Source: Limosilactobacillus caccae (GTDB taxonomy: Bacteria; Bacillota; Bacilli; Lactobacillales; Lactobacillaceae). From it: DNA of 64,000 bases. The position numbers and the translations under genes were made by a program. Shown here one piece after another: positions 1 to 6,310 of this stretch. Each line of letters starts with the position of its first letter. The first letter of the stretch is position 1. The DNA lies in contig NZ_FTOY01000011.1 of the NCBI RefSeq assembly GCF_900156885.1, forward strand, positions 672,501 through 736,500, read 5' to 3'. The notes under the pieces were generated by a model that did no database searches, had not been told where the DNA came from, and saw nothing but the letters and a program-made list of their open reading frames with translations.

Positions 1-1720
1 TGGTGACTGGATCCGCGAGTGAGATATGCTGGAGGTCAAAATCAGGGGTGATTTGCCGAACGGCCTGCATCGTGTTATCCATAATCGATAGGTTCTTTAG
101 CCCCAGGAAATCCATCTTTAACAACCCCAACGCCTCAACGGTATCTTTAGGGAACTGGGTCATCAATAGCCCATCACTCCCGTTTTGGAGGGGAACAATC
201 TCGTGCAGGGGCTCTTCGGAAAGGACGACCCCTGCCGCATGGATCGAATAGTGGCGTGGCAGCCCTTCTAACTGCTGGGCAACCTTGATCAGCAACTGGT
301 ATTTCGGGTTATCATCTAGCAAGTTATTGAGGCGTTGTGACTCAGCAAGGGCCTGCTTAAGGGTCACGTGAAGCCCATGCGGCAAGGAAGCGGTAATGCT
401 TTCCGTTTCATACCGTGACAGGCCAAAGACCCGGCTGACATCCCGCACAACTTGCTTTGCGGCCAAGGTCCCAAAGGTAATAATCTGGGCAACCCGCCGG
501 TGACCATATTTTTGGTGAACATATTGCAACACCTCATTACGTCGGTTATCAGGAATATCAAGGTCAATATCCGGCATCTGGGCACGCTCGGGATTGAGAA
601 ACCGTTCAAACAAGAGGTCGTACTCCAGGGGGTCGACTTCCGTAATCGCCAATGCATAGGCAACTAACGAGCCAGCAGCTGACCCTCGCCCGGGATCAGT
701 CGTAATCTTTTGCTGGTGGGCAAAGTTCATCACGTCCCAGACAATCAGGAAATAATCATCAAAGCCCATTTCATGGATGACTTTTAATTCCATTGCTAAG
801 CGCTGTTGGTAGTCTTGTAATGTCTTATGGGGAGCAACCCGTCGTTTTTTGAGTCCAGCAATACACAGGTGGCGTAAATACTCCTGCGAATTTTGTCCGG
901 CTGGTGTTTGGTAGTGTGGCAGTACCGGCGAACGAAATTTCAGGCTAACGTTACAATTAGCAACCACTTCTGCGGTCTTATCGACTGCCATCGCAAGGTC
1001 AGCGTCACGGTAACTTTTAATCACCTGCTGGCAATCTTTTAAATAGTCCTCCCCTAGCCGCCGTGCCTGTTCAGCGGGGTCTTTTAACTCAACCCCGGCG
1101 CCAATCGCCTGAAGCACCCGACTAGCAAAGAGGTCTTCTGGATTGAGATAATCAACCGGTGAACTGGCGACGATTGCCAGTCCCTGCTGGTCGGCATACT
1201 GCTTAATTGTCGTCAGCTGGACGTGGTCGAGGTCTGGATTAACCCCGATTAATAAGCTGTCAGTATCGCTTAGTTGGTGAAGCTCATGTAAAATTGGCTG
1301 CTGCTGGGCAATGATGCTCAAAAGAGTGCTCTGCGGCGGAATGACGATGTAAAGGTCACCCAACAGCGGCTTGATCTCCGCAACTGCCAGGGGTAATTGG
1401 GTATGCTCCTTTGTCTGGTGAAGGGTCGACAAGTCCATTAGGTGCTGGTAGCCTTGCTGGTTCTTGGCAAGAAAAAGCAAGCGTAACTTATTGCCATCCA
1501 CATTATTAAGGGCAATTACCAGCTGCAGGCCAATCAGCGGCTTAATTCCCGCTGCCGTCGCCGCATTATAAAAGTCAACCGCGCCATATAATACATTCTC
1601 ATCGGTTAGCGCTAACGCCTGGTAACCACGCTTCTTGGCCGTTTGCACTAAATCATCAATCTTAGTTGGGCTCTTCAATAAACTATAACTGCTTTTGACA
1701 TCTAACGGTGCAAATTCCAC
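1..1720 (-). CDS. dnaE: DNA polymerase III subunit alpha, DnaE type (partial, 3' end off the left edge)
   Basis: About 573 N-terminal residues of a roughly 1100-residue replicative polymerase are present; the C-terminal part lies outside the window. A GTG start at 1718-1720 fits a strong GAGGTGAAGG ribosome site. The protein opens with a PHP-domain pattern (SSYSLL, then ALALTDEN), followed by the polymerase core motif PDIDLDIPDNRR, which keeps the catalytic aspartates, and GRGSAAGS. DnaE-type enzymes lack the PolC proofreading exonuclease; in Firmicutes they extend primers, mainly on the lagging strand. The PHP domain has lost the usual metal-binding histidines: DVK where VH is expected and TDEN where TDHG is expected. 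This suggests, as an inference, that it has no PHP nuclease activity. The gene is divergent from the small yjzD-like gene. Confidence 0.95.
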   Translation of the reverse strand, partial: MEFAPLDVKSSYSLLKSPTKIDDLVQTAKKRGYQALALTDENVLYGAVDFYNAATAAGIKPLIGLQLVIALNNVDGNKLRLLFLAKNQQGYQHLMDLSTLHQTKEHTQLPLAVAEIKPLLGDLYIVIPPQSTLLSIIAQQQPILHELHQLSDTDSLLIGVNPDLDHVQLTTIKQYADQQGLAIVASSPVDYLNPEDLFASRVLQAIGAGVELKDPAEQARRLGEDYLKDCQQVIKSYRDADLAMAVDKTAEVVANCNVSLKFRSPVLPHYQTPAGQNSQEYLRHLCIAGLKKRRVAPHKTLQDYQQRLAMELKVIHEMGFDDYFLIVWDVMNFAHQQKITTDPGRGSAAGSLVAYALAITEVDPLEYDLLFERFLNPERAQMPDIDLDIPDNRRNEVLQYVHQKYGHRRVAQIITFGTLAAKQVVRDVSRVFGLSRYETESITASLPHGLHVTLKQALAESQRLNNLLDDNPKYQLLIKVAQQLEGLPRHYSIHAAGVVLSEEPLHEIVPLQNGSDGLLMTQFPKDTVEALGLLKMDFLGLKNLSIMDNTMQAVRQITPDFDLQHISLADPVT

Positions 1721-1741
1721 TTACCTTCACCTCTCAATCAA

Positions 1742-1750
1742 ATTATACCA
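1742..1750 (-). promoter_or_regulatory. Extended -10 promoter candidate for dnaE
   Basis: On the minus strand TGG-TATAAT is a perfect -10 with a TGn extension, about 22 bases upstream of the GTG start. The -35 region at 17-bp spacing is weak, which is compatible with an extended -10 promoter. Confidence 0.5.
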
Positions 1751-1784
1751 AAACATTTTATCAACAGGAAAATATCGGCAGGGC

Positions 1785-1814
1785 TTTCAAATGTTACAAT
1801 AAATATGCTAAAAT
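1785..1814 (+). promoter_or_regulatory. Promoter candidate for the yjzD-like gene
   Basis: TTTCAA and TAAAAT are separated by 18 bp, and a TGC precedes the -10 (extended -10). It lies about 30 bases upstream of the start at 1845. Confidence 0.45.
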
Positions 1815-1844
1815 TATTATATGACTTCAAAGGGGATGACCAAC

Positions 1845-2048
1845 ATGAAAGTTCTGACAAAGAATATCGTTGCCGCTATTTGGGCAGTTATTCTTGGTGA
1901 GGTCCTAGCTTACATTACTAGTCAACTAGAATCAATGACACCAAATTACACGATCGTCGCTGTGGTTGCAGTTATTATGGGGTTGATCGTTGTTAACTGC
2001 GTTGATTACATCACCGCTAGTGCAAACCCTAATAAAGACGAACAATAA
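1845..2048 (+). CDS. Small membrane protein, YjzD/DUF2929-like
   Basis: The protein has 67 residues and two hydrophobic stretches (about residues 7-25 and 35-57), with a short charged tail ending NKDEQ. The ATG at 1845 is preferred over the one at 1821 because an AAAGGGGA ribosome site lies 8 bases before it. Two membrane segments, small size and a position next to dnaE match the DUF2929 (YjzD) family of Firmicutes, whose function is not established here. The assignment rests on pattern and context, so the family name is tentative. The gene is the only one on the plus strand in this part and is followed by two strong hairpins. Confidence 0.75.
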   Translation: MKVLTKNIVAAIWAVILGEVLAYITSQLESMTPNYTIVAVVAVIMGLIVVNCVDYITASANPNKDEQ

Positions 2049-2056
2049 AACAAGCT

Positions 2057-2160
2057 GGAAAAAAGCTTCTCGGAGCCCCGGTGGGGTAACCTAGGACGGG
2101 CATTGACACGGTACGAGTCAACGTTTGTCCGTAGTTACCCTTGAGGGGCTCGCTTTTTCC
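2057..2160 (+). ncRNA. Candidate structured RNA or palindromic element of about 104 nt
   Basis: Five nested pairings make one long interrupted hairpin: GGAAAA(A)AGC 2057-2066 with GCTTTTTCC 2152-2160; GAGCCCC 2073-2079 with GGGGCTC 2145-2151; GGGTAAC 2084-2090 with GTTACCC 2134-2140; GGAC 2094-2097 with GTCC 2127-2130; and TTGAC 2103-2107 with GTCAA 2117-2121. It follows the yjzD-like gene by 8 bases. A separate strong terminator lies downstream at 2192, so this element is more than a terminator. It has no T-box, SRP, 6S or known riboswitch core that I recognise. It could be a small RNA, a 3' UTR element or a dispersed palindromic repeat. Confidence 0.4.
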
Positions 2161-2191
2161 GCGATTACTGTGTAATATTCGGAACGAAAAC

Positions 2192-2228
2192 AAGAGGCCA
2201 GGAAAAGCTACACTTTTCCTGGCCTCTT
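2192..2228. terminator. Bidirectional terminator between the yjzD-like gene and pepT
   Basis: A perfect 16-bp stem (AAGAGGCCAGGAAAAG and its complement) has a 5-base loop, with T-rich sequence on both outer sides. It can serve the plus-strand gene and the minus-strand pepT. Confidence 0.85.
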
Positions 2229-2242
2229 TAGTTTAAAAGTCA

Positions 2243-3490
2243 TTAGTTATTTTGCGCGTTCAATTCCACGATCTTAAGCAATACGTCGAGTGCCCGTTCC
2301 ATCGTTTGGACAGAAACATACTCAAAGCGACTGTGCATGTTCTCGCCACCAGCGAAAAGGTTTGGCGTTGGTAGGCCCTTGTAAGAAATAGTTGAGCCGT
2401 CAGTCCCACCCCGAACAGGGTAAATATCAGGCTTGATCCCCAGTTCTTCCATTGCTTGTTTAGCAATCTCAACAACATCCATGTGGTCTTGTAGGGCATC
2501 CTTTAGGTTGTAGTACTGGTCATAAAGGTTCATCTTGACCCGTTCTTCACCGAGTTCATCATTGATGCCCGCAACGACCCGCTCAAGCAGGTCTTTACGT
2601 TCTGCAAAGATTTGTTTGTCGTGGTCCCGGATAAGGTAAACCATCGTGGCATGGTCAACTGTCCCATCAAACTTGTACAGGTGGTAGAATCCCTGCCGGC
2701 CATCGGTCCGTTCTGCCCGGTCATGGCTTGGCAAGCTATTATGTAAATCAATGGCGACTTGGATTGCGTTAATCATCGTTCCCTTCGCAACCCCGGTATG
2801 GACATCCTTCCCTTGGATCTCAATCTCGGCCTGGGCCGCATTAAAAGTCTCGTATTCCAGTTCGCCTAGTGGCCCACCATCAACAGTGTAGGCAAAGTCG
2901 GCACCAAAATCAGCAACATCAAAGTGGTCGGCACCGGTCCCAATTTCCTCATCGGGGCCAAGGCCAATTCTGATCTCCCCGTGTTTAATTTCTGGGTGCT
3001 TCATCAGGTAGGCAGCCATCGTAATGATTTCCGCCACTCCAGACTTATCATCAGCTCCAAGGAGGGTAGAACCATCAGTAGTCACCAAGGTATTCCCCTT
3101 GTACTTTTTCAGTGACGGGAATTCGGCTACGGTTAACTTATACTGTCCTTTTTCATCGAGTTGAATGTCTGATTGACCATCATAGTCTTCAACAATCTGC
3201 GGGTTGACATTATGCGCATTGAAATCTGCCGTATCAACATGGGCAATAAAGCCAACCACTGGTACCGAGTGGTCGAGGTTGCTGGGAATTGTCGCCATCA
3301 AGTAGGAACTTTGCTTATTGATGTGGACATTTGCTAAGCCAAGGTCGACTAGTTCACCCTTCAGTTCATTTAAAAATGCCGTTTCCTTGGGATCAGAAGG
3401 GATCGTCGTTGAAGCCGGGTTGGACCGGGTTTCTGTCTTAACATACTTTAAGAAACGGGATAACAATCCATCATATTTTTCTTCAACCAT
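2243..3490 (-). CDS. pepT: Peptidase T (tripeptide aminopeptidase)
   Basis: This 415-residue M20-family zinc peptidase removes the N-terminal residue from tripeptides in the cytoplasm, a late step in using milk- or host-derived peptides. Visible metal and catalytic motifs are AHVDTADF, GADDKSGVAEI, the DEEIGTGADHF pair of glutamates, TVDGGPLGELE, and the C-terminal GGTDGST and GGENMHSRFE. The start at 3490 is chosen because AGGAG lies 9 bases before it, whereas an in-frame ATG at 3499 sits directly on that site. Length agrees with the family. It follows the Nif3-like gene by 17 bases and is probably read from the same transcript, ending at the 2192-2228 terminator. Confidence 0.95.
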   Translation of the reverse strand: MVEEKYDGLLSRFLKYVKTETRSNPASTTIPSDPKETAFLNELKGELVDLGLANVHINKQSSYLMATIPSNLDHSVPVVGFIAHVDTADFNAHNVNPQIVEDYDGQSDIQLDEKGQYKLTVAEFPSLKKYKGNTLVTTDGSTLLGADDKSGVAEIITMAAYLMKHPEIKHGEIRIGLGPDEEIGTGADHFDVADFGADFAYTVDGGPLGELEYETFNAAQAEIEIQGKDVHTGVAKGTMINAIQVAIDLHNSLPSHDRAERTDGRQGFYHLYKFDGTVDHATMVYLIRDHDKQIFAERKDLLERVVAGINDELGEERVKMNLYDQYYNLKDALQDHMDVVEIAKQAMEELGIKPDIYPVRGGTDGSTISYKGLPTPNLFAGGENMHSRFEYVSVQTMERALDVLLKIVELNAQNN

Positions 3491-3507
3491 TAAAAACATC
3501 TCCTAAA

Positions 3508-4332
3508 TTATTTCGTAACAAACGTAAATGGCTCTGTGTCTACCTTATTCTCAATAATTGAGAATTGCCAGTTATTCTCATCACGCCACTGGCCAATTAG
3601 CGCCGCTAGGCCATGTTGCACGACTACTTCAATGTGGTGCCCAGGATCAACGACAACGAGGTGGTTGGCAATCATGTCGTGGGCAAAGTGGTAGCTGACG
3701 TCGCCAGTAACATAAGCGTCAGCCTGCAACGAAACGGCTTTATCATAGAAGTCTTGCCCCGCACCACCAAGGACGGCAACCCGCTTAATCTGCTTTTTAT
3801 CATCGAGGGGGTTACAGATCAATCGCAAGCCCTTAACCGCAAACACCTTCATGCAGTAGTCAGCAAATTCTCGTGGTGTCAACGGGGTAGCGAGTTCGCC
3901 AACCCGGCCCATTCCGACAGCCTGGCCAGTAACCGGGTCAGTCCCGGCAGGCACAAGCGGAACAAGGTTGGTCAGCTGCAGCTGTTCAGCAAGCCAATCA
4001 TTCATCCCCCCGTTCGCAGTATCTAAGTTCGTGTGGGCCGCGTAGACAGTAATATTATTCGCCAAAATTTTGGCATACATTTCATTTTGCGGGTTGCGCG
4101 TGTCAAGGTCTTTTGCCGGGTGAAACATCACTGGGTGGTGGGCAAAGATAAAGTCGACATGCTCAGCGATTGCCTCATCAACGACTTCTGGCCGGACGTC
4201 CAAAGTGGTCATCAAACGGGAAATCGGCTGGTCGGGATTCCCGATTTGTAAACCGACATGGTCCCACTTTTCAGCAAGTTGGGGACTAGCAAATTGTTCA
4301 AAACGATTAATTAGTTGGGTACCGGTGGTCAC
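3508..4332 (-). CDS. Nif3-like dinuclear metal centre protein (YqfO family)
   Basis: The 274 residues belong to the Nif3/YbgI family, proteins with a dinuclear metal site. In Firmicutes one member acts as a GTP cyclohydrolase 1 type 2 homolog, but the substrate in most species is uncertain. Metal-ligand motifs are visible in FAHHPVMF, the AAHTNLD segment and the late DPGHHIE segment. The start is GTG with AAGGAGG about 10 bases upstream. The gene overlaps the end of trmK by 26 bases, the usual Firmicute pairing (yqfN-yqfO), which points to translational coupling. It lacks the longer middle insertion seen in larger homologs. Confidence 0.9.
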   Translation of the reverse strand: MTTGTQLINRFEQFASPQLAEKWDHVGLQIGNPDQPISRLMTTLDVRPEVVDEAIAEHVDFIFAHHPVMFHPAKDLDTRNPQNEMYAKILANNITVYAAHTNLDTANGGMNDWLAEQLQLTNLVPLVPAGTDPVTGQAVGMGRVGELATPLTPREFADYCMKVFAVKGLRLICNPLDDKKQIKRVAVLGGAGQDFYDKAVSLQADAYVTGDVSYHFAHDMIANHLVVVDPGHHIEVVVQHGLAALIGQWRDENNWQFSIIENKVDTEPFTFVTK

Positions 4333-5026
4333 TGGTAATTACCTCCTTAATTTCCCGTAATTTTTCTTCTAAGCGGGCGATCTTTTGCAACGGTGGTTGT
4401 TGCGCCTTTTGCATTTGTGCAATGACATTCTCCTCCCGCTGACAAAATTCCTGCCACTTCTTCTTGAAGACCGGGGCCTTCTTTTCAAGCAGCAACGGCC
4501 CAAACTCTAGCTCGTACTGGCTATAGTAGAAGGGAACAATTGACGGTTCGGCGAGGATTATTTCATAAATATGGTCGTCTTCTTCAATAATTTTTTCACC
4601 CGTAATTTGGTAGCGATTAGCCATTAGCCATTGGCGAACCTGCTTCTCACCAACATTGGGCTGAAGGATTAGACGTTTCACTCCCACTAGTTTATCCCGC
4701 CCCTTTTCCAAGATTGAGGCGATCAAACTGCCACCCATTCCAGCAATCACAACCGTGTCAATCTTATCTTCCGGGGTGATCGCCGCCAGGCCATCTGCCA
4801 AGCGTGGCTGGATCTCATCGGTTAACTGCTGGTGGGTAATTTCATGAACGGCGTTTTCATAGGGGCCCTTCACCACTTCACCAGCAATCGCATAGTTAAT
4901 TTTCCCCTGCAACACCAGGGCGGCAGGTAAGTATGCATGATCCGAACCAATGTCAGCTAACCGCGCCCCAGCAGGCACAAGCGAAGCGACACCAGCTAAT
5001 CGTGCAGATAAGTGTTCCGCATCCAA
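4307..5026 (-). CDS. trmK: tRNA (adenine(22)-N(1))-methyltransferase TrmK
   Basis: TrmK puts a methyl group on N1 of adenosine 22 in tRNA, using S-adenosylmethionine. The Rossmann motif ADIGSDHAYLP, the VIAGMGG motif and LILQPN are all characteristic. The C-terminal part is rich in lysine, glutamine and glutamate and probably forms a helical tRNA-binding region. An ATG lies at 5035 but touches the AAAGGA site with no spacer. A TTG at 5026 has a 9-base spacer and gives a better N-terminus (MDAEHLSARL), so it is preferred; the difference is three residues. It is the first gene of trmK-nif3-pepT. Confidence 0.92.
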   Translation of the reverse strand: MDAEHLSARLAGVASLVPAGARLADIGSDHAYLPAALVLQGKINYAIAGEVVKGPYENAVHEITHQQLTDEIQPRLADGLAAITPEDKIDTVVIAGMGGSLIASILEKGRDKLVGVKRLILQPNVGEKQVRQWLMANRYQITGEKIIEEDDHIYEIILAEPSIVPFYYSQYELEFGPLLLEKKAPVFKKKWQEFCQREENVIAQMQKAQQPPLQKIARLEEKLREIKEVITSDHRYPTN

Positions 5027-5096
5027 ATAAATCATTCCTTTGTAAAACTGAATAACTTAATTATAACAAATCAGCCGGATAAGTTTTAATTGCTAA

Positions 5097-5123
5097 ACAA
5101 AAAAGCCGGCAATTTGCCAGCTT
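5097..5123 (-). terminator. Terminator of the aminotransferase gene
   Basis: On the minus strand AAGCTGGC and GCCGGCTT form an 8-bp stem with one G-T pair and a 5-base loop, followed by a run of T. It begins 6 bases after the aminotransferase stop. Confidence 0.8.
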
Positions 5124-5128
5124 AATCA

Positions 5129-6310
5129 TTATAATTGTGCGAGATAATTTTTAATCCGCTTCAGTGCTTCAGTTAAGTTTTCATCAGATGACGCATATGA
5201 GAGACGGACATATCCTTCACCGCCGTCACCAAACGCGCTTCCTGGAGTAACACCGACCTTCGCCTGGTATGCGAGTTCCTTTGCAAATGCCATGTCATCC
5301 TTGCCAAACTTCGCCGGAATTTTGGCAAAGATATAAAAGGCCCCTTCCGGTGTTAGCATCTCAAAGCCCATCTCCCGCAGGCCTTGGACTACCAGGTCCC
5401 GCCGGTGTTGGTAGATCTTGCGGAACTCAACCGGGTCATTAAGGCCATTAGTTAATGCTTCGGTACCAGCTGCCTGAACATTGTTCGTCACTGACGTAAC
5501 TAAGAAGGCGTGCATCTTCCCAATTTGGGCCATAATCTTGGCCGGTGCAGCAACATAACCAAGGCGGTAACCCGTCATCGCGTGTGACTTTGATAAGCCG
5601 GAGACAAAAATCGTCCGTTCTGGAATCATCGTCGCAATTGAGTGGTGGTCGACCCCGTAAGTAAGGTCACTGTATATCTCATCCGCAATCGCGTACAGGT
5701 GGTGGGCACTGATTACCTTTGCCAACCCTGCTAAGACATCTTGCGGGTATTCACGGCCAGTTGGGTTAGATGGGTAGTTAAGAAGGACCGCCTTTACACC
5801 TTCACCTTCTTCTTCGATTACCTGCTCCAAGCGTTCAGGAGTCAGGACAAAGTTATCTGCGGAAGTATCAACTTGGACAACCGTGGCCCCTGTCATCTCG
5901 ATCAACGGGAAGTAAAGGGAAAAGACTGGTGTCGGCACAATTACCTTATCGCCAGTATTCAAAATTGCAAAGAAGATCGCGTCGAGAGCCTCAGTAGCCC
6001 CAACGGTTGAGATAATCTCTGTCTGTGGGTCGTAATGTACATCCCTTGTCTTTTCGATGTACTTACTAATCGCTTCCAGTAATTCCGGCTTCCCCGTCTG
6101 CGGAGCATAATGTGAATCATCGTCTTGAATGCTCTTAATTGCAGCTTGTTTAACGTGTTCGGGGGTTGCCATATCTGGTTCCCCCAGCGTTAACTTGATA
6201 ACCCCAGGAATTGCTGAAACTTCCTTATTAAATTGGCGAATCCCCGATGGCTTTAACGCGGCAAGCTTATGACTAATGGTTCCATATAAATCAGCAGATA
6301 ACTCTGGCAT
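5129..6310 (-). CDS. Pyridoxal phosphate-dependent aminotransferase, class I/II
   Basis: This is a 393-residue fold-type I aminotransferase. Visible features are the PLP lysine in SGLSKSHAMTGYRLGY, the NYPSNPTG motif that binds the substrate carboxylate, ADEIYSDLTY with the PLP-ring aspartate, and the C-terminal YVRLSYA arginine. Close relatives in lactobacilli are annotated as aromatic or N-acetyl-diaminopimelate (PatA) aminotransferases; the sequence alone does not decide the substrate. The start has AAGGAGAG 7 bases upstream. It has its own promoter and terminator and separates rpoD from trmK, which are neighbours in many relatives. Confidence 0.9.
   Translation of the reverse strand: MPELSADLYGTISHKLAALKPSGIRQFNKEVSAIPGVIKLTLGEPDMATPEHVKQAAIKSIQDDDSHYAPQTGKPELLEAISKYIEKTRDVHYDPQTEIISTVGATEALDAIFFAILNTGDKVIVPTPVFSLYFPLIEMTGATVVQVDTSADNFVLTPERLEQVIEEEGEGVKAVLLNYPSNPTGREYPQDVLAGLAKVISAHHLYAIADEIYSDLTYGVDHHSIATMIPERTIFVSGLSKSHAMTGYRLGYVAAPAKIMAQIGKMHAFLVTSVTNNVQAAGTEALTNGLNDPVEFRKIYQHRRDLVVQGLREMGFEMLTPEGAFYIFAKIPAKFGKDDMAFAKELAYQAKVGVTPGSAFGDGGEGYVRLSYASSDENLTEALKRIKNYLAQL

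Follow-up and report, generated by a model that had tools for sequence, protein, structure and literature searches.

Locus and fold of the hairpin

The window analysed here is a 64,000-nucleotide stretch of the Limosilactobacillus caccae genome (contig NZ_FTOY01000011.1), in which a DUF2929 gene and a convergent gene for a pepT-like M20 peptidase flank a 104-nucleotide interrupted hairpin on the + strand, located by reading and folding the sequence. The first arm of the hairpin begins 9 bases 3′ of the DUF2929 stop codon (2046-2048). The genes and the parts of the hairpin are as follows.

1821-2048, + strand: DUF2929 gene, ending just before the repeated unit (ORF list, annotation of neighbours)
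2057-2160, + strand: long interrupted hairpin with helices P1 to P4 (folding, covariance model match, covariation)
2057-2066, + strand: 5′ arm of P1, GGAAAAAAGC, pairing with GCTTTTTCC at 2152-2160 (sequence, model alignment)
2067-2072, + strand: one-sided bulge, TTCTCG (alignment A3)
2073-2079, + strand: 5′ arm of P2, GAGCCCC, pairing with GGGGCTC at 2145-2151 (covariation)
2084-2090, + strand: 5′ arm of P3, GGGTAAC, pairing with GTTACCC at 2134-2140 (covariation)
2091-2093, + strand: CTA side of an internal loop whose other side is at 2131-2133
2094-2107, + strand: 5′ arm of P4, pairing with 2117-2130 (covariation, model alignment)
2108-2116, + strand: apical loop, ACGGTACGA (alignments)
2243-3499, - strand: pepT-like M20 peptidase gene, convergent (ORF list, annotation of neighbours)

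The multi-stem structure that the initial annotation placed at 2057-2160 is real. The stretch 2040-2230, which takes in a second hairpin as well, folds at -86.5 kcal/mol compared with -51.6 (SD 5.0) for 200 shuffled versions, none of which folded as well (z = -7.0); the opposite strand of this stretch also folds well (z = -8.4). Of the arms listed there, GGAC and TTGAC are not separate stems, being parts of one longer helix, P4, which has 14 positions, some of them G·U and one A·C. The covariance model (R1, built from 30 sequences and with 41 pairs) matched the window copy at 2049-2167 with 103.6 bits. The window holds a single copy, the second match of the model there being the same hairpin on the other strand. 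Among the unpaired parts, the bulge reads TTCTCG or TCCTCG in most A3 sequences and has other letters in other lineages, the apical loop is ACGGYACGG in most A3 sequences and differs in other lineages, and the internal loop is mostly CTA/GTA without being invariant (e.g., ATA/GGA in one subfamily). No known RNA had been recognised in the hairpin, and a covariance search against Rfam likewise found nothing at E ≤ 1 across window positions 1-6000; at the loci of four relatives, it gave only five matches, all below the gathering score and to unrelated families.

A repeated unit of hairpin, tail, and terminator

BLAST of 2050-2165 against its own genome found 14 places, namely the window copy, 12 others at 89-93% identity, and one at 80%, and R1 at E ≤ 1 gave 14 matches as well. 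When these copies were oriented, the hairpin was followed by a tail like CGCGATTACTRTGTAATATTCGG and then, in nearly all of them, by a terminator hairpin whose arms differ between copies with compensation. The repeated unit and its additional parts were placed in the window as follows.

2050-2228, + strand: whole repeated unit (hairpin, tail, and terminator), 179 nucleotides (parts shared by own-genome copies, BLAST ends)
2161-2191, + strand: conserved tail (CGCGATTACTRTGTAATATTCGG...) and short variable linker (oriented own-genome copies)
2192-2228, + strand: terminator hairpin of the unit, with arms at 2192-2207 and 2213-2228 (compensatory differences between copies)

There is indeed much more here than a terminator would need, as the hairpin, with its four helices, makes up only part of a 179-nucleotide unit. 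What had been taken for a second, ordinary terminator at 2192-2228 is a real and perfect hairpin but not an independent one, since it belongs to the repeat. That it might be a general terminator of this genome was ruled out, because all six places with the common form of its pattern (GGCTGRGAARAAA...) adjoin copies.

With an L. balticus copy as the query, many hits in other genomes started at query positions 613-617 and stopped at 801-806, and these nearly constant ends indicate that hairpin, tail, and terminator form one unit, of about 191 bp. Several BLAST matches in the reuteri group took in the terminator part alone, so that similar terminators exist without the hairpin. Individual copies have lost or gained parts of the terminator, which is present without its 3′ arm in locus L007 and has its loop interrupted by further sequence in L104.

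The hairpin itself varies in length. Of 66 hairpins, 27 have an insert between P2 and P1 (insert 2), and 9 have a different one (insert 1) placed at the P3 3′ arm. In L. panis (L112), the two optional inserts can pair with each other at 19 of 23 positions, permitting a second fold. Genome G008, a single 1.9-Mb contig, contains head-to-tail arrays of hairpins with a period of about 121 bp (L212, bases 284-659; also L213 to L215), with 3.1 copies in one array, no tail or terminator between the units, and a partial last unit in L212. An apparent remnant of an inverted, deleted copy lies ~40 bases past an intact unit in L115.

Distribution across genomes

R1 matched 32 of 50 Limosilactobacillus genomes at E ≤ 0.001, with 1 to 71 matches each when at most 72 candidates were scored per genome. 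In G008 there were at least 140, as 140 of 150 scored candidates had E ≤ 1. Among 201 genomes sampled from the family, with few candidates scored in each, nine had matches and seven of these were within Limosilactobacillus. The two outside the genus (G131, with three matches, and G255, with one weak match) have the same helix order and CTA/GTA internal loop. Their loci (L154 and L155), from two other Lactobacillaceae genera, contain hairpins with a common CCTAG/CGTAG core, and L155 apparently lies inside a cluster of motifs of this type. A sample of 395 genomes from the order, which is not known to include E. faecalis and in which at most nine candidates were scored per genome, so that weak or rare members may be missed, had four genomes with matches, all of them in Limosilactobacillus.

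A search of a species-genome collection with the apical pattern, which is not a census because lineages such as G010 do not have it, retrieved 44 stretches, 35 in Limosilactobacillus records (reuteri, balticus, oris, agrestis, and panis) and nine from one MAG titled uncultured Lactobacillus sp. There was no match in plasmids with window positions 2050-2235 as the query or in phages with the G049 element in L063 as the query, and the apical pattern was absent from viral contigs.

Conservation of the + strand fold

In alignment A3 (29 distinct sequences), 96.5% of the cells were paired and both sides had changed in 21 of the 41 pairs, including 7/7 pairs of P2. The covariation score was 0.441, compared with 0.187 for shuffled alignments, none of which (0/500) scored as high. 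Four of the five measures gave this outcome (0/500), with only "further pair types" unexceptional (204/500), and sliding the partners abolished the covariation signal. The initial annotation had set compensatory changes at one conserved locus, pointing to an RNA, against many scattered copies, pointing to a mobile palindrome; both turned up together, as many scattered copies with compensatory changes between lineages.

The pairs that depart from Watson-Crick tell the two strands apart. Read on the + strand, the cells of this kind in A3 numbered 116 for G·U and 8 for A·C, and 33 were of other types; G·U was spread over 18 column pairs and A·C over 7. These are cells and not events, and the kinship of the sequences inflates them. 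A second set, made up of 24 sequences that came from 20 other genomes (41 rows minus 14 weaker opposite-strand matches of the same places and 3 whose genomes are in R1 or close to it) and aligned by fitting to R1, gave 85 G·U, 6 A·C, and 62 other cells, with G·U in 24 column pairs versus A·C in 5 and both-side changes in 36 of the 41 pairs. A palindrome maintained as double-stranded DNA should give nearly equal numbers of the two, and the conserved entity is therefore the fold of the + strand. In DNA, too, G·T pairs are more stable than A·C, and the bias therefore fits RNA and single-stranded DNA alike.

Within genomes, rough counts of variant states over all helices came to 33 for G·U and 22 for A·C. 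For P2 to P4 in five groups (P1 was left out because the optional insert misaligns it), the rough figures were 25 versus 12, a weaker bias than that between sequences, with 4 versus 4 in the L. caccae genome and 12 versus 2 in two reuteri-group types.

Gene context of the copies

Among 71 copies, which include some orthologous ones and for which ORF calls were mechanical, 31 lay between convergent genes and 2 between divergent genes, while 10 were left unclassified. The 28 copies between tandem genes were divided evenly, the + strand being sense in 14 and antisense in 14. The 61 classified copies (31 convergent, 28 tandem, and 2 divergent) were set against a background of 105 gene pairs at these named loci, of which 12 are convergent, 64 tandem, and 29 divergent. 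With different ORF and gap limits in the two sets, the copies showed an excess of convergent (Fisher, 4e-8) and a deficit of divergent positions (5e-5). Copies are thus almost always at the 3′ ends of genes, in either orientation. By eye, and with the origin assumed at base 1, there was no clear replication-strand bias among the G008 matches listed.

Occupied and empty sites

The site of the window copy was read in 30 of the 50 genomes, its own included. DUF2929 is next to pepT in 21 relatives, 19 of which have by eye a short plain hairpin there, while the place is taken by a different and longer stretch in G013 and by a longer element in G011. Eight further relatives differ in their neighbouring genes. 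Of the conserved RNA that had been proposed for this locus, what stands is that the arms are conserved with compensatory changes, but they belong to a dispersed repeat (14 copies) and not to an RNA of one locus, and most relatives with the same gene pair have the plain hairpin instead. The G011 element at the DUF2929-pepT site (L038, 1278-1480) has a 73% BLAST link to an L. oris-type copy (query 86-199) and includes tail and terminator; R1 gave no match to it at E ≤ 0.01 (L061), and by sequence it is a probable distant relative of the repeat. An 8-base direct repeat around the window copy (AAAACAAG, at 2047-2054 and 2187-2194) was considered as a target-site duplication and rejected, as other copies have by eye no such site-specific repeat.

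Two occupied sites could be compared with their empty counterparts. At the L. balticus site (L117), four relatives have a plain terminator, reading AAACCTTTGAGGATGAG...CTCATCCTCAAAGGTTT in G053 and AAACCTTTGAGGATAAG...CTTATCCTCAAAGGTTT in G054, with close variants in G056 and G016; in the occupied site, the two halves of the stem base, AAACCTTTG and CAAAGGTTT, border the element, with two additional bases. The same terminator has been hit repeatedly, as G055 contains a decayed copy (L175) and G015 and G018 another insert, GGGACTGTGACATAAG... (L176 and L177). At the L. reuteri site (L115), which is also occupied in G056, the relatives G055, G053, G021, and G016 have the terminator GAAGAGACT...AGTCTCTTC, and GAAGAG and CTCTTC are retained around the element. 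The inner terminator at both occupied sites is that of the element subfamily, as found at other loci, and not that of the relatives, which indicates that the relatives' tip was exchanged and not kept. Comparison of these alleles thus demonstrates an apparent tip exchange at two sites, both in the reuteri group. However, the relatives' tips resemble the terminator of the element (e.g., GAGGCTGAGAAAA in G056 and G016), and gene conversion between similar terminators could mimic such a replacement.

The outer flanks of the copies point the same way in part. In 57 of the 71 copies, a set that excludes copies containing N or lacking a clear end, flank complementarity exceeded that of within-genome permutations (3/5000 as low). 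The signal was carried by a few strong cases, in the MAG (35 of 5000) and L. reuteri (55) and less so in L. balticus (364), and it was absent in the L. caccae genome (2936), L. oris (4170), and five G010 copies (1282). With no such signal in L. caccae and L. oris, tip replacement is shown for the reuteri group only. Read by eye, one intergenic terminator (AAGGACAAGAG/CTCTTGTCCTT) is occupied both in the MAG (L082, reverse complement 6304) and in L. reuteri (L095, 6479), with the element facing opposite ways.

Nature of the repeat and possible mechanism

Taken together, we consider it fairly likely that the hairpin belongs to a miniature element of Limosilactobacillus, about 180-190 bp long, non-coding and probably mobile, which would work in the manner of the EFAR repeats discussed below, exchange itself for the tips of hairpins, and be tolerated as a terminator. 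Transposition is inferred here from the comparison of copies and sites. An enzyme encoded elsewhere would act in trans on the folded + strand and put the element in place of a target hairpin's tip, with recognition perhaps through the recurring CTA/GTA internal loop, which is common though not invariant. Copies would then persist because transcription from both sides ends there. A more specific version is possible but tentative, namely, a family of hairpin-for-hairpin exchange in which the folded + strand, as RNA or single-stranded DNA, is read by a protein, perhaps via the CTA/GTA loop, and replaces the tips of terminators. As the element brings a terminator of its own, the host would under such an exchange retain a working terminator, and insertion would be cheap.

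Some of the same observations would suit a structured RNA that serves the host within 3′ untranslated regions, for instance in mRNA stabilisation or as an RNase or protein-binding site, and that had spread through its usefulness. The compensatory changes in the arms, the G·U bias of the + strand, which extends to two reuteri-group subfamilies (12 versus 2 states), and the position of copies directly after stop codons all agree with it. We nevertheless regard it as unlikely, given that copies in tandem pairs are as often antisense as sense (14 and 14), that the number of matches goes from none to at least 140 among species of one genus, and that the variants within the L. caccae genome are unbiased (4 versus 4). 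As for an ordinary enlarged terminator that evolved at the window locus, its position after one gene and before a convergent one would be the expected one, but the genome has 13 more copies next to other genes, 12 of which share 89-93% identity with the one in the window. These refute the explanation, and we give it next to no credence.

Known routes of mobility were considered as well. A classical MITE, i.e., a DNA transposon that has lost its interior, depends on an IS transposase acting at its terminal inverted repeats, and duplicates the target site, would likewise be dispersed, non-coding, and provided with inverted arms (GTGGGAAATAACC/GGTTATTTTCCAC). These arms, however, are not at the ends of the unit, which continues through tail and terminator; comparison with the two empty sites (at L117 and L115) shows a loss of the target tip and no duplication; and there was no parent IS with the same ends, BLAST of 2050-2165 in its own genome at E ≤ 10 yielding the 14 copies only. 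This makes a MITE improbable. A REP/BIME-like element, moved by a Y1 transposase of the RAYT or IS200/IS605 type acting on a folded single strand, is less probable again, even though the repeat is palindromic and intergenic and has a strand-specific fold. The Y1 domain (PF01797) showed no association with the element, occurring in 22 of the 32 genomes that have the element and in 9 of the 18 that do not. It was missing from 10 of the 32 bearing genomes, one of them with 29 matches, although drafts, which could hide the gene, are among these.

Relation to known miniature elements

The nearest parallel is provided by the EFAR repeats of Enterococcus faecalis, reportedly described by Venditti et al. 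in 2007. EFAR integrates at stem-loops, where most of the target is lost and the stem bases remain at the ends, and it shows modular length variation. To our knowledge, no enzyme is known for miniature elements that target stem-loops. The Limosilactobacillus repeat corresponds in size and form to the EFAR type (about 170 bp and two adjacent stem-loops), with 179 nucleotides in L. caccae, about 191 bp in L. balticus, and two hairpins. Loss of the tip with the stem base kept was found at both sites read, in the reuteri group, where gene conversion is a possible cause, and modular variation is seen in the inserts of 27/66 and 9/66 hairpins and in the 121-bp tandem units of G008. It differs from EFAR in its genus and in being a four-helix hairpin with its own terminator. 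We would class the repeat as working like EFAR, by description and not as a matter of common descent.

An intergenic family of E. faecalis, Efa-1, has a 163-bp model, 65 copies (18 of them complete), and two adjacent stem-loops (PMC2267715); Efa-1 is probably EFAR. The Efa-1 comparison and those with ERIC, SPRITE, RUP, and BOX draw jointly on PMC2267715, PMC10969869, and PMC1590033. ERIC of the enterobacteria, as outlined there, is like the repeat in being intergenic, about 127 bp long, and made of one long stem-loop, whereas its hosts and, as far as described, its architecture are different, and it is set apart on that description. SPRITE, RUP, and BOX of Streptococcus pneumoniae are also small intergenic repeats, SPRITE being terminator-like; compared by description, they differ in that tip replacement does not figure in the descriptions consulted. 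REP/BIME with RAYT are dispersed palindromes too, with REPs of 20-40 bp, but the Y1 transposase is missing from 10 of the 32 repeat-bearing genomes. A description of the repeat itself was not found among the literature matches listed, in a search that covered few subscription journals.

In some genomes of Limosilactobacillus, whose members are common bacteria of gut and food, the repeat is a visible share, reaching at least 140 matches in a 1.9-Mb chromosome. If true, the strand-specific fold and the tip replacement would allow the mechanism by which miniature elements target stem-loops to be tested in a tractable genus. On a practical level, the repeats may disturb draft assemblies and could perhaps serve as typing markers.
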